Below are positions 4,518-7,668 of a stretch of 7,668 bases of DNA, one piece after another. This stretch comes from Nitrospirae bacterium GWC2_42_7 (GTDB lineage Bacteria; Nitrospirota; Thermodesulfovibrionia; Thermodesulfovibrionales; UBA6898): assembly GCA_001803645.1 (NCBI GenBank), contig MHDW01000186.1, positions 1 to 7,668 on the forward strand. The letters are read 5' to 3'. Within the stretch, counting starts at the first letter, position 1; every line of letters begins with the position of its first letter. Both the position numbers and the translations under genes were made by a program. The notes beneath the pieces are model-generated. The model had not been told where the DNA came from. It saw nothing but the letters and a program-made list of their open reading frames with translations, and did no database searches.

Positions 4518-4657
4518 CCTAAAAACGGCAGTTCGAGTCTGTCATTGCGAACAAAGTGAAGCAATCTCGCAGTTTTATCCTGAGATTGCCACACACCCTT
4601 CGGGTGTTCGCAATGACATGTTTTTATTCACTTTTTCGTTTTAACTGCTTTTTTAGG
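4518..4657. mobile_element. MITE-like palindromic element, copy 2
   Basis: This 140-bp element is identical to the copy at 256-416 apart from that copy's 20-bp insertion and one T. The terminal inverted repeats are CCTAAAAACGGCAGTT and AACTGCTTTTTTAGG. Inner arms are TGTCATTGCGAAC (4540-4552) with GTTCGCAATGACA (4606-4618), CAATCTC (4562-4568) with GAGATTG (4582-4588), and ACACCC (4593-4598) with GGGTGT (4602-4607). Flanks are ATAAA at 4513-4517 and ATAAA at 4658-4662, a 5-bp target-site duplication different from that of copy 1. It carries no protein gene. Its position 18 bases after a stop codon, like copy 1 just beyond another stop, means its hairpin could also affect 3' ends of transcripts. 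Confidence 0.88.
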
Positions 4658-4713
4658 ATAAATAGTGTCCCCAAAAGTTCTTCCATATACAATATTATCC
4701 ATGTTTGATTATC

Positions 4714-5164: not shown

Positions 5165-5836
5165 TTAACAACAGGAACACCCTGCCAAGTAGAGATCGGG
5201 TGACATTTCTTTTACCCATTGGATAGATGTATTGTTAAAATTAATTGGGAGTCCAGTTTTAATCACGATAGGTTGTTTTTCAGCAGGAGGAGTACCCACT
5301 TTCAGACAAAGTCCGCTGTTGCTGTAATTTATGACTGTAGCTTGATATGTTTTATCGTTGTTGTATTCATATACTATATCTATGTTAGAGGGATGACGGT
5401 ATTCTTTCCTTATGGTCCCGAGGGGTTTTGACAGATCAATACGTTTCTCACAATTACCAAGCCAGGCAAAAAGCTCATTAAATCTGAAAGGTTTGTTGAA
5501 GAATGCACATCCTAACTCTTCGATCATCTCCTGGCCTTTACCGTCGATGTTCCCGGACATAACAAGCTTATTTCTTATATCAACCTTGCATCCCATTTGT
5601 GCCTGATGAAGCAGCATTTCAGTTCCGGTCATCCCCGGCATTTGATAATCGGTCATGATAATATCAGCACATGGATTTAAGAAATTATTGCACTTGTCTG
5701 CCTTGCCGCTATTGATCGGGCAGACAACCGGTCTGTCAAAGAGCAGTATCTCGTAATCCCTCTGGGACATAAATATCTTAAGCATCTCAAGAGTAGTTAC
5801 ATCATCGTCAAAGATGCTTATTCTCAGTTTTCTCAT
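5165..5836 (-). CDS. Response regulator with receiver and PilZ domains (REC-PilZ)
   Basis: The 223-residue cytoplasmic protein should be a phosphorylation-controlled cyclic di-GMP receptor. The receiver (about 3-128) has the acidic pocket FDDD (9-12), phospho-acceptor D63 in MTDYQMPGMTG, S94 in LVMSGN and K115 in NKPF, so it looks active. An insert at about 36-56 (CPINSGKADKCNNFLNPC) makes the beta2-beta3 region longer than usual. The PilZ domain (about 140-220) has RKEYR (143-147), matching RxxxR, and NYSNSG (170-175), matching [DN]xSxxG, the two c-di-GMP-contacting motifs. There are ten Cys in all and the end is GCSCC, which is odd. The start has AAGGGG eight bases upstream and a plausible -35/-10 pair. 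It is divergent from the LuxR-type gene at 6065. No histidine kinase is in the window, so its phosphodonor lies elsewhere. Confidence 0.9.
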   Translation of the reverse strand: MRKLRISIFDDDVTTLEMLKIFMSQRDYEILLFDRPVVCPINSGKADKCNNFLNPCADIIMTDYQMPGMTGTEMLLHQAQMGCKVDIRNKLVMSGNIDGKGQEMIEELGCAFFNKPFRFNELFAWLGNCEKRIDLSKPLGTIRKEYRHPSNIDIVYEYNNDKTYQATVINYSNSGLCLKVGTPPAEKQPIVIKTGLPINFNNTSIQWVKEMSPDLYLAGCSCC

Positions 5837-6064: not shown

Positions 6065-6601
6065 ATGAGCAGAATTAATAAAGAAATAATGGTCAAGGTC
6101 AAGAATTCTCTGAGATCTATTGATAAGAACCTCGAAAAGGAAGCAGTAATATTTATTGATGCAAAAGGCGCGCATTGGATTAATGAACTTGCTAATGAAT
6201 TTATTTCCAAAAAAGGGATACCCAAAGAAGATTTTGTGGAATGGATCAAGATCGGATCTTCTCATCTTCAGAACCTCAATTATGGCGACATAGATATTCA
6301 CATGATGAAGCTTCCGGAACAGGATGTGGTAGTATTTCTCAAACAAGGACAGAAAGAGACTGATTCTAAAAAGTGTAAGCTCACTCTAAGGGAAAAAGAG
6401 CTTCTGCGTTACCTTGTGCAGGGATTTTCGAACAAGAAAATAGCAGGCCTTATGAAGATCAGTTCCGGTACGGTCAACACTCATCTTGACAATATTTATT
6501 CGAAGCTTAACTGCTCAAACAGAGTTACGACTTGTTTTACTGCCCTTAAGAACGGCCTTTACCTCCCAACCTGTAATGTTGGAGTAAATAAAATGACTTA
6601 G
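6065..6601 (+). CDS. LuxR/GerE-type HTH regulator with PAS-like N-terminus
   Basis: The 178-residue DNA-binding protein has a C-terminal GerE/LuxR helix-turn-helix at about 105-166: LTLREKELLRYLVQGFSNKKI, then GTVNTHLDNIYSKL (recognition helix region) and a final helix to about 164. The N-terminal about 25-95 (VIFIDAKGAHWINELANEF and VVVFLKQ at the end) looks like a degenerate PAS fold. No receiver domain is present, so it is not a classical NarL-type response regulator. The start is supported by GAGGGGGT shortly upstream of ATG. It is transcribed away from the REC-PilZ gene, so the two share a 228-bp AT-rich control region. The regulator may control itself, its neighbour or both; this is inference. 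No terminator is visible after its stop. Confidence 0.88.
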   Translation: MSRINKEIMVKVKNSLRSIDKNLEKEAVIFIDAKGAHWINELANEFISKKGIPKEDFVEWIKIGSSHLQNLNYGDIDIHMMKLPEQDVVVFLKQGQKETDSKKCKLTLREKELLRYLVQGFSNKKIAGLMKISSGTVNTHLDNIYSKLNCSNRVTTCFTALKNGLYLPTCNVGVNKMT

Positions 6602-6885: not shown

Positions 6886-6914
6886 TTGATATATTTGAGG
6901 ATCAGTGATATATT
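6886..6914 (+). promoter_or_regulatory. Extended -10 sigma70-type promoter for the riboswitch transcript
   Basis: TTGATA (6886-6891, five of six) and TATATT (6909-6914, five of six) are spaced by 17 bases, and TGA directly before the -10 gives an extended -10 TGn. Transcription would start near 6921, about 35 bases before the aptamer. A weaker alternative is TTGACG (6916-6921) with TTTGAT (6939-6944), which would start even closer to the aptamer. Confidence 0.6.
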
Positions 6915-6956
6915 TTTGACGTATATATGAATTAGTTCTTTGATAAAGAAGTTTTC

Positions 6957-7053
6957 GTTTCCGAAAAGGTAAATCCTGGGTAATCAGGAGGCACAAAGCT
7001 ACGGGTCCTTTTGAGAATGTTATTTGAAAGGACCGCCGGGCTGCCGAAGAAAC
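6957..7053 (+). promoter_or_regulatory. GEMM-I (cyclic di-GMP-I type) riboswitch aptamer
   Basis: This RNA element should bind a cyclic dinucleotide and control the genes downstream. P1 is GTTTC (6957-6961) with GAAAC (7049-7053), then GGTA (6968-6971) with TGCC (7042-7045). The first hairpin is TCCTGG (6974-6979) with TCAGGA (6984-6989), closed by a GUAA tetraloop, a GNRA loop as the family requires. The conserved CAAAGC (6994-6999) and ACGGGTC (7001-7007) follow. The second hairpin pairs GGTCCTTTT (7004-7012) with GAAAGGACC (7026-7034). Then comes the hallmark GCCGGGCTGCCGAA (7035-7048). A G (6968) appears to sit at the ligand-contacting position called G20 in the Vc2 aptamer, favouring c-di-GMP over cGAMP, but this is an alignment by eye. 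An intrinsic terminator follows 29 bases later. Confidence 0.88.
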
Positions 7054-7097
7054 AGTGCATGTCCATATGCTATCTTTTTGGAAAAGGCCTGTTTCTT
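7048..7097 (+). promoter_or_regulatory. Predicted antiterminator pairing of the riboswitch
   Basis: AAGAAACAG (7048-7056) is a perfect 9-base complement of CTGTTTCTT (7089-7097). The first contains the 3' strand of aptamer stem P1, the second is part of the 5' arm of the terminator. The pairing is therefore mutually exclusive with both P1 and the terminator, the logic of a transcriptional switch. Confidence 0.65.
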
Positions 7098-7122
7098 GTT
7101 TCCTGGAAACAGGCCTTTTTTT
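7082..7122 (+). terminator. Intrinsic terminator, expression platform of the riboswitch
   Basis: A 14-bp perfect stem, AAAAGGCCTGTTTC (7082-7095) with GAAACAGGCCTTTT (7106-7119), encloses a 10-base loop and ends in seven consecutive T (7116-7122). It is the strongest terminator in the window and no gene ends just before it, so it acts on the leader transcript. Confidence 0.9.
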
Positions 7123-7191
7123 GTCTGGTACGGGAGAACTAAAAAGAAGGGAGGGAAAAAAGAAAGATATCAGACGTACAGGAAGAGGGTA

Positions 7192-7305
7192 ATGGCGACT
7201 ATGAAACCACCTACCTATTTGGGCGCCATGGTTGGTGGTGGAGTCAATGGCGCAACCAGCCAACTATTGCAAATCTTATTTAGGTTTTTACAAGGTTATT
7301 TGTAA
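7192..7305 (+). CDS. Small ORF (37 residues) in the riboswitch-controlled leader
   Basis: The frame MATMKPPTYLGAMVGGGV...QGYL begins with ATG preceded by AGGAAGAGGG at 7180-7189, an adequate ribosome binding site. It ends in TAA 15 bases before the next ATG, whose own ribosome binding site starts four bases after this stop. The product is Gly-rich in the middle and hydrophobic at the end (LLQILFRFL), like a small membrane-active or membrane-associated peptide. I recognise no family. It is the first possible gene after the switch terminator and is tightly spaced to the exported-protein gene, suggesting a bicistron or a translated leader peptide. A longer frame from a TTG at 7024 runs through the riboswitch and terminator and is not credible. 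Confidence 0.5.
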   Translation: MATMKPPTYLGAMVGGGVNGATSQLLQILFRFLQGYL

Positions 7306-7320
7306 AAAAAGGAGATTTCT

Positions 7321-7668
7321 ATGTGCTGGAAAAAACTAATATGTTTATTACTAGTAGTTGGCTTAATGGTTATCAGTTTTTCATCGCCAGTATTTGCACG
7401 TAATAAAGAACAACGCAGTCAGGTTAAAGTGCAAGCCCCCCTAGACGCTATCAATTGCCTGGCGGCCCCTGCGACTATCAGCCTGCTTGGACTTACCATA
7501 GACGTAAGCAAGGCGAGCTTCGTCTCTGAATGGCATGACGAGCAAGCTAATAACTTGACCTGTGCCGATCTGACAGTGGGCCAAGTGGCGGAAGTTAATT
7601 TGATCAGTGATACTCCTGATCCTGTGACCGGGCTGCTGACGGCAACCAAAATAGAAGCACCCGGTGAC
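7321..7668 (+). CDS. Exported DUF5666-like protein, 5' part (cut by window end)
   Basis: 116 codons are open to the window edge, so length and C-terminus are unknown. The start has AAGGAG (7309-7314) six bases upstream of ATG. Residues 1-27 form a clear signal peptide: MCWKK, hydrophobic core LICLLLVVGLMVISF, then SSPVFA with V-F-A suiting signal peptidase I. The mature part (ISLLGLTIDVSK, LTVGQVAEVNLIS, TGLLTATKIEA) has the alternating strand pattern and 'vGq.veV...G.L.AtkIe' ending of DUF5666, a small beta-barrel-like exported domain of unknown role. C46 and C81 may pair. It should be controlled by the upstream cyclic dinucleotide riboswitch. Past about 7420 the gene is visibly richer in GC (about 50-55 % in sampled lines) than the genes before it (about 38 % in the LuxR-type gene). 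Confidence 0.75.
   Translation, partial: MCWKKLICLLLVVGLMVISFSSPVFARNKEQRSQVKVQAPLDAINCLAAPATISLLGLTIDVSKASFVSEWHDEQANNLTCADLTVGQVAEVNLISDTPDPVTGLLTATKIEAPGD

Follow-up and report, generated by a model that had tools for sequence, protein, structure and literature searches.

Two c-di-GMP-type aptamers of different classes in one Thermodesulfovibrionales leader: a possible opposite-sign tandem

What decision could a leader make that reads a cyclic dinucleotide twice before a single gene? This question is raised by a locus of Nitrospirae bacterium GWC2_42_7, analyzed here in a window (the whole stretch of DNA under study) of 7668 nucleotides, which is contig C186 in a genome of 238 contigs that is 71% complete. 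An earlier note on this DNA had described one riboswitch unit, comprising a promoter, a GEMM-I (class I) aptamer, an antiterminator and a terminator, followed by a small ORF and an exported protein. The class I switch, predicted to be OFF, was retained in our analysis, whereas the small ORF is better read as a second aptamer of another class. The sequence, covariance models and covariation establish both folds, the terminator, the strand shared by class I P1 and a possible antiterminator, the order of class I before class II and the recurrence of this order. The features of the leader are as follows.

6886–6914, + strand: possible promoter, with −35 TTGATA, a 17-nt spacer, −10 TATATT and TG before the −10 (10/12 matches)
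6957–7053, + strand: class I c-di-GMP aptamer, with P1 formed by GTTTC (6957–6961) and GAAAC (7049–7053)
7049–7095, + strand: predicted antiterminator, GAAACAG (7049–7055) with CTGTTTC (7089–7095)
7083–7122, + strand: intrinsic terminator, a 14-bp stem and a T tract
7149–7154, + strand: GGGAGG, a weak form of the SD-like element that lies ahead of class II aptamers
7185–7268, + strand: class II c-di-GMP-type aptamer (RF01786), between the terminator and the start codon
7223–7253, + strand: class II pseudoknot, GCGCC (7223–7227) with GGCGC (7249–7253)
7271–7318, + strand: predicted SD hairpin, AAAUCUU (7271–7277) with GAGAUUU (7312–7318) around an inner A/T hairpin, covering most of GGAG (7311–7314)
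7321–7668, + strand: start of the downstream gene, with a signal-peptide-like N terminus (by eye) and a weak DUF5666 match (E = 0.011, below the cut-off)

Two aptamers and the recurrence of their order

We ran the covariance-model check proposed for the GEMM-I aptamer, and RF01051 (c-di-GMP-I) scored 63.4 bits on positions 6957–7053, above the gathering cut-off of 35. The GEMM-I sequence motifs lie where the earlier note had placed them, as do GTTTC at 6957 and 7091 and GAAAC at 7049 and 7106; an additional GTTTC occurs at 7098, inside the terminator loop. The same aptamer scored 61.7 bits with RF03167, the c-di-GMP-I-GGC variant (gathering cut-off, 59). We rejected this variant identity: the RF03167 consensus has a G in CGCGAAGC, which by our own reading of the model marks the GGC variant, and the window has an A (CACAAAGC). 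Because its raw score was higher with RF01051 than with RF03167, the aptamer was filed as an ordinary class I member. In the model alignment, the pocket-equivalent bases of the window are G6968, A6995 and C7044, which we take to correspond to G20, A47 and C92 in Vc2 numbering and thus to the c-di-GMP type. This G/A/C set was found in all six tandem loci (see below) and in 35 of 37 class I rows overall, L038 being ambiguous owing to a base inserted by the alignment. One class I aptamer of the family (L037, genome G025), and perhaps that of L038 (G017) if its ambiguous alignment is so read, has an A at the position-20 equivalent, a type known for cGAMP. The pocket-edge pair was flipped in 18 of the 37 rows, with AAGCC...GGAAAGC in place of AAGGC...GCAAAGC. 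The G20 position has been described as a selectivity factor of class I (PMC9262584). Changes on both sides were observed for six pairs of the class I fold, compared with 1.6 after shuffling (0/500 shuffles). P1 varied on both sides in no case in the class I alignment, which leaves P1 and the antiterminator without covariation support.

The second aptamer, at positions 7185–7268, matched RF01786 with 50.0 bits (E = 6.3e-9), under the gathering cut-off of 53.5; other close relatives scored 35.0–53.1 bits. Across the 10 aligned loci of this close group, 92.1% of cells were paired, compared with 85.0% after shuffling (0/500 shuffles), and 10 pairs showed both-side changes, compared with 4.4 (0/500), while the number of further pair types was not above that of shuffles (291/500). 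The pseudoknot was paired in 100% of cells, with both-side changes in two of its five pairs, and covariation was found in both the P3 stem and the pseudoknot, as expected of c-di-GMP-II. P1 of class II is weak in the relatives of the order (−1.8 to −6.4 kcal/mol). A second class II copy (49.8 bits) is found on contig C47 of the genome; it has no class I match beside it, and the different gene that it precedes encodes a partly masked protein of exported appearance. With the pattern used here, an SD-like run (at its best AAAGGAGGUG; GGGAGG in the window) was found 15–99 nt upstream of class II in 12 of 14 loci (the window, L003 and L007–L018); it is absent from L011 and L013, and no start codon was seen after it in the 12 loci. 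Three records titled Thermaceae (L054, L055 and L056) each contain two class II aptamers on opposite strands, facing away from each other and 132–167 nt apart, one being ordinary and the other best scored by the GAG variant.

We searched the order Thermodesulfovibrionales with R2, a class II model built from the 10 loci, and obtained 21 matches in 17 of 176 genomes. High scores with R1 and R2 are a consequence of building both models from these loci; the matches of the loci to Rfam models do not depend on either. All 21 places were checked for a nearby class I aptamer, in loci of approximately 3 kb or less. Class I was found upstream on the same strand in six of them (the window, L008, L009, L011, L012 and L017) in five genomes, i.e. 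in five leaders of four genomes other than that of the window, at a spacing of 127–170 nt. Outside the order, 108 of 398 genomes of Bacillota, the phylum of Oceanobacillus, had a class II match. Thirty Bacillota loci were inspected, of which three had class I upstream. It lies in the same leader in L096 and L101; in L121 it is 408 nt upstream with a short ORF between (by eye). Since these 30 loci are the best-scoring, one per genome, of the 108 genomes, 2/30 is not a rate; the tandems in L096 and L101 nevertheless indicate that the arrangement is not confined to one clade. The filters of the R2 search, as of all genome searches over more than 40 genomes, lose weak matches. A collection scan yielded 31 stretches, 22 of them with a match to the class II model. 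The class II core was the same as in loci of the order in 12 of the 31 (e.g. L050 = L010 and L073 = L083), and the tandems among these 12 were L008, L009 and L017 again. None of the 17 stretches checked with Rfam at E = 0.01 had a class I match. The scan pattern was modelled on this clade, and the scan is thus not a measure of tandem frequency. The leader DNA had no match in plasmids.

The ORF of the likely exported protein starts at 7321, its signal peptide being judged by eye. Beyond the window, where the sequence contains masked stretches and frame changes, the gene has one DUF5666 match over the cut-off and a CarboxypepD_reg match below it. The downstream proteins look exported in all six tandems of the order (by eye); that of L011 has Sortilin/BNR-like repeats, that of L012 has DUF4382 and a lipoprotein-like start, and no Pfam match was found for those of L008, L009 and L017. 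Judged by eye, the proteins downstream of tandems resemble proteins downstream of class II alone (L017 and L003, L008 and L007, L009 and L010), a likeness that suggests gain or loss of class I as a module. Elsewhere in the window, a PAS-GGDEF protein (969–2633, − strand), a response-regulator/PilZ-like protein with both domains below the Pfam cut-off (5165–5836, − strand) and a LuxR-type regulator (6065–6601, + strand) form a cyclic-dinucleotide neighbourhood beside the riboswitches. A MITE-like repeat of approximately 150 bp, which itself contains inverted repeats (TGTCATTGCGAAC...GTTCGCAATGACA), was seen by eye at 262–415 and 4521–4660, and a related stretch at 2710–2880.

Predicted signs of the two switches

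We examined the elements around the class I aptamer. The extended −10 promoter is present as a sequence, with its −10 element 42 bases from P1. However, the scan gave three promoter-like sites, compared with 3.8 expected from shuffles; as such sites are no commoner than by chance, the promoter is plausible, not shown. The terminator is strong: its 14-bp stem (7083–7118; −21.5 kcal/mol, z = −5.34) was equalled by 0 of 200 shuffles and is accompanied by the seven T of the earlier note (7116–7122). The antiterminator reaches −15.1 kcal/mol while the 3΄ strand of the terminator is still unavailable. At equilibrium in the window, the terminator (−28.0 kcal/mol) is favoured over the antiterminator (−15.1 kcal/mol), so that the class I decision must be kinetic. 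In all six tandems of the order, the P1 3΄ strand of class I and the next bases read GAAACAG (GAAGCAG in L017) and can pair, as long as the terminator is incomplete, with CUGUUUC, which is also part of the terminator 5΄ strand; each tandem has a terminator and a T tract. A ligand-bound P1 would let the terminator form, which predicts that class I is a transcriptional OFF switch, a prediction supported by this anatomy. That the P1 3΄ strand, the antiterminator and the terminator can compete in this way in 6/6 tandem loci supports the OFF sign predicted in the earlier note. An OFF class I is not unusual: the class I c-di-GMP switches of Clostridioides difficile are OFF (PMC11477304, PMC9262584).

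For class II, we compared the platforms of eight relatives, the window and L012 being set aside from the close group; L012 is a misfit, with its start codon 152 nt away. In the eight relatives, four of them tandems (L008, L009, L011 and L017) and four with class II only (L003, L007, L010 and L018), the start codon is 23–32 nt downstream. In all eight, the P1 3΄ strand AGCC-NN-CUUAC, or a variant, complements GUAAG-GA-GGC, or a variant, over the SD sequence, and in L008 (CUUGC/GCAAG) and L011 this anti-SD pairing is kept through matching changes. The SD hairpins of the eight have z values of −1.7 to −4.5, and for none of them did more than 36 of 500 shuffles do as well. On nine rows including the window, the eight pairs of the anti-SD helix were 91.7% paired, compared with 29–54% when the partner was slid; 5 of 500 shuffles reached the number of paired cells and 32 of 500 reached the two double-change pairs, although a partner slid by −2 gave three such pairs compared with two in register. 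In none of the nine loci did the SD-pairing probability stand out from shuffles, of which 51 or more out of 200 matched it in every locus; this control is uninformative, in part since the helix has tandem G-A positions that are scored as unpaired.

When the P1 strand was held, the cost of opening the SD sequence fell by 1.2–9.8 kcal/mol in all eight relatives with at most 12 nt of coding sequence (L003 being shortened by a masked stretch). The effect was small in L018, and with 30 nt of coding sequence it was gone in L008 (−0.7) and L017 (−0.3). In a whole-leader proxy with the aptamer held, SD opening increased at least 7-fold in six of nine loci; the values were 1.6-fold in L011, 0.5-fold in L018 and 0.1-fold in the window. 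In the Bacillota tandems L096 and L101, whose class I P1 runs into a T tract, holding the class II P1 strand lowered the cost from 9.4 to 0.07 kcal/mol in L096 and from 9.9 to 0.66 kcal/mol in L101. A freed P1 strand would thus hide the SD sequence and a bound P1 would leave it open, so that class II is predicted to be ON in 8/8 close relatives and in both Bacillota tandems. Apart from the close group, L014, L015 and L016 have class II aptamers with a G at position 73 upstream of genes whose N termini look pilin-like (by eye); P1 CCUCC can pair with a start-site GGAGG, as the folds of L015 and L016 show, which again predicts ON.

With the two signs opposed on a single mRNA, the leader would act as a band-pass device. 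According to this proposal, class I bound by c-di-GMP would end transcription at its terminator, binding of the class II-type aptamer would, judging by the relatives, free the ribosome-binding site, and expression of the downstream gene would be limited to intermediate signal. We infer that class I, whose decision must fall during transcription, needs a higher ligand level than class II, whose action is on the finished mRNA. With simple binding curves, the peak output was 0.83 of the maximum at a K_I/K_II of 100, 0.25 at equal affinities and 0.008 at 0.01; the affinity ordering thus decides whether the device is a band-pass. Ligand binding by each aptamer, with bound class I turning the gene off and bound class II turning it on, is presumed in this scheme. 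For the family, an opposite-sign tandem is the reading that fits best, and we adopt it by default for the window; the full proposal, with the two switches in series and the gene on only at intermediate signal, is quite possible, although we hold it tentatively. In two phyla, and on different class I platforms, a pair of unrelated c-di-GMP-type classes predicted to have opposite signs would thereby form a natural RNA-only band-pass filter or, if the two ligands differ, a gate separating c-di-GMP from cGAMP.

Ligand of class II and alternative readings

The contacts of c-di-GMP-II include C68, A69, A70, C71, C72, G73 and A74 (PMC7288161). The window departs from these contact bases, reading CAACCAG with A7258 at the G73 position, and its aptamer is described here as a class II-type variant for this reason. 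If the Rfam variant names give bases 69/70/73, as the RF03169 consensus suggests, it would be of an 'AAA' type. A73 was found in 10/10 rows of the close group including the window, and in L006; the other 10 of the 21 matches in the order have G. G73 was also found in 11 sites of eight loci of other lineages and in 28 of the 30 Bacillota loci, the remaining two having U (L109 and L121; read by eye). This replacement of a known contact raises the possibility of a two-input gate, in which class I reads c-di-GMP and turns the gene off and the A73 class II reads 3΄,3΄-cGAMP and opens translation, i.e. NOT c-di-GMP AND cGAMP. The signature of Hypr-type (cGAMP-synthase-like) GGDEF proteins is a Ser plus GGDEF (PMC6456294). 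A Hypr-type orthologue was found in 8/8 A73 genomes (59–100% identity; in the window's genome the frame is partial, with 305 aa) and in 0/9 G73 genomes, where the best matches listed had 34–44% identity; all 14 orthologues found have GHxxGS and GGDEF. From this co-occurrence, class II may read cGAMP. However, the distributions of A73 (f1, f10 and f13, with G73 in f5 and f11) and of the Hypr gene both run along families, so that the association may reflect shared descent, and six of the seven genomes sampled from the window's family that lack a class II match have the gene as well. In addition, 0/9 is a count of orthologues, the serine having been read in the 14 orthologues, and G001 has a separate serine-bearing GGDEY protein that is 38% identical. 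The A70 position deviates as well in L011, which has a C there, and in L006. The GGDEF protein within the window is of the ordinary Asp type. We regard the link between A73 and the Hypr gene as a clade-level association, not proof, and the two-input gate as possible but unlikely. If it is true, a class II-type RNA would read cGAMP made by the genome's Hypr GGDEF protein, and one leader would tell two sister cyclic dinucleotides apart; neither such an RNA nor such a leader was found in our literature searches.

Two further alternatives concern the class II platform of the window. Its hairpin at 7269–7320 has −10.2 kcal/mol (z = −2.63), whereas for 7258–7323 the z value is −0.9 and 92 of 500 shuffles are as good. 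The P1/SD duplex has −2.0 kcal/mol, compared with −9.7 to −15.4 kcal/mol in the relatives, and among the nine loci compared the window alone is without the conserved complement of the SD region. A shift of +2.2 to +2.6 kcal/mol toward ON was obtained only when coding bases pair with CCAGC (−0.2 kcal/mol without coding sequence). In the whole-leader proxy, the sign was opposite, SD opening falling from 0.26 to 0.025, and other constraints changed little; this folding ignores the pseudoknot, and its outcome is ambiguous. The ON sign of class II in the window itself is accordingly described as weakly supported. The lowered SD opening, and an SD hairpin at 7271–7318 that is compatible with P1, would suit a double lock in which both switches are OFF, termination being followed by hiding of the ribosome site, for which the SAM-II/SAM-V pairs are a precedent (PMC9481103). 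Yet the P1 strand can serve as anti-SD in the eight close relatives and two Bacillota loci, which predicts ON, and we consider the double lock distinctly improbable. To a similar degree we doubt that the platform of the window has been lost, so that the class II aptamer would fold and only the class I OFF switch would work: the missing complement and the shuffle result for 7258–7323 point in this direction, but the aptamer core and pseudoknot are intact and the SD hairpin at 7269–7320 exists.

The conserved small ORF or leader peptide of the earlier note is highly improbable: the frame is open from ATG 7192 to TAA 7303–7305 and similar peptides are readable in several relatives, but the same stretch matches c-di-GMP-II, the frame shifts in L012, in-frame upstream start codons are absent from L011, L013, L014 and L015, the pseudoknot double changes of L007 and L018 (GCC to GTC with GGC to GAC) alter amino acids on both sides, and we rejected this reading as neither a kept frame nor a consistent start was found among the relatives.

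Comparison with known systems

We compared the opposite-sign tandem with published arrangements. At the level of titles and abstract openings, the literature searched named no class I/class II c-di-GMP tandem, and the pair is absent from Tables 1 and 2 of PMC9481103. A 2025 survey of contiguous riboswitches pooled both c-di-GMP classes as one family and expected pseudo-cooperative action (PMC12452182); the anatomy described here predicts another outcome. One-ligand tandems have been explained in a survey as steeper or two-level forms of the same decision. Doublets and triplets of c-di-GMP-I (PMC9481103, PMC4759541) likewise place several c-di-GMP aptamers in a row, but there one class is repeated, which is expected to steepen the response, whereas a window of signal is predicted here.

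The term bi-mechanism tandem denotes a leader that combines a transcriptional riboswitch with a translational one for an identical ligand (PMC9481103). The SAM-II/SAM-V tandems so described, whose two classes read the same ligand, resemble the present leader in having two classes in one leader, with the terminator first and the ribosome site second. The order and the terminator are found here as well, and the predicted translational platform is clear in the relatives and weak in the window. However, SAM-II and SAM-V are both described as turning expression off, whereas here opposite signs are predicted from the relatives and a second messenger would be sensed (PMC9481103). The same two classes, with class I OFF and class II ON, are found in C. 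difficile (PMC11477304), although they control separate genes there and lie on one mRNA here. Finally, the Desulfobacca gates, AdoCbl/c-di-GMP-I and AdoCbl/c-AMP-GMP, likewise combine an OFF switch followed by an ON switch, with a predicted NOT A AND B logic; their first sensor reads coenzyme B12, unlike class I here (PMC9481103).
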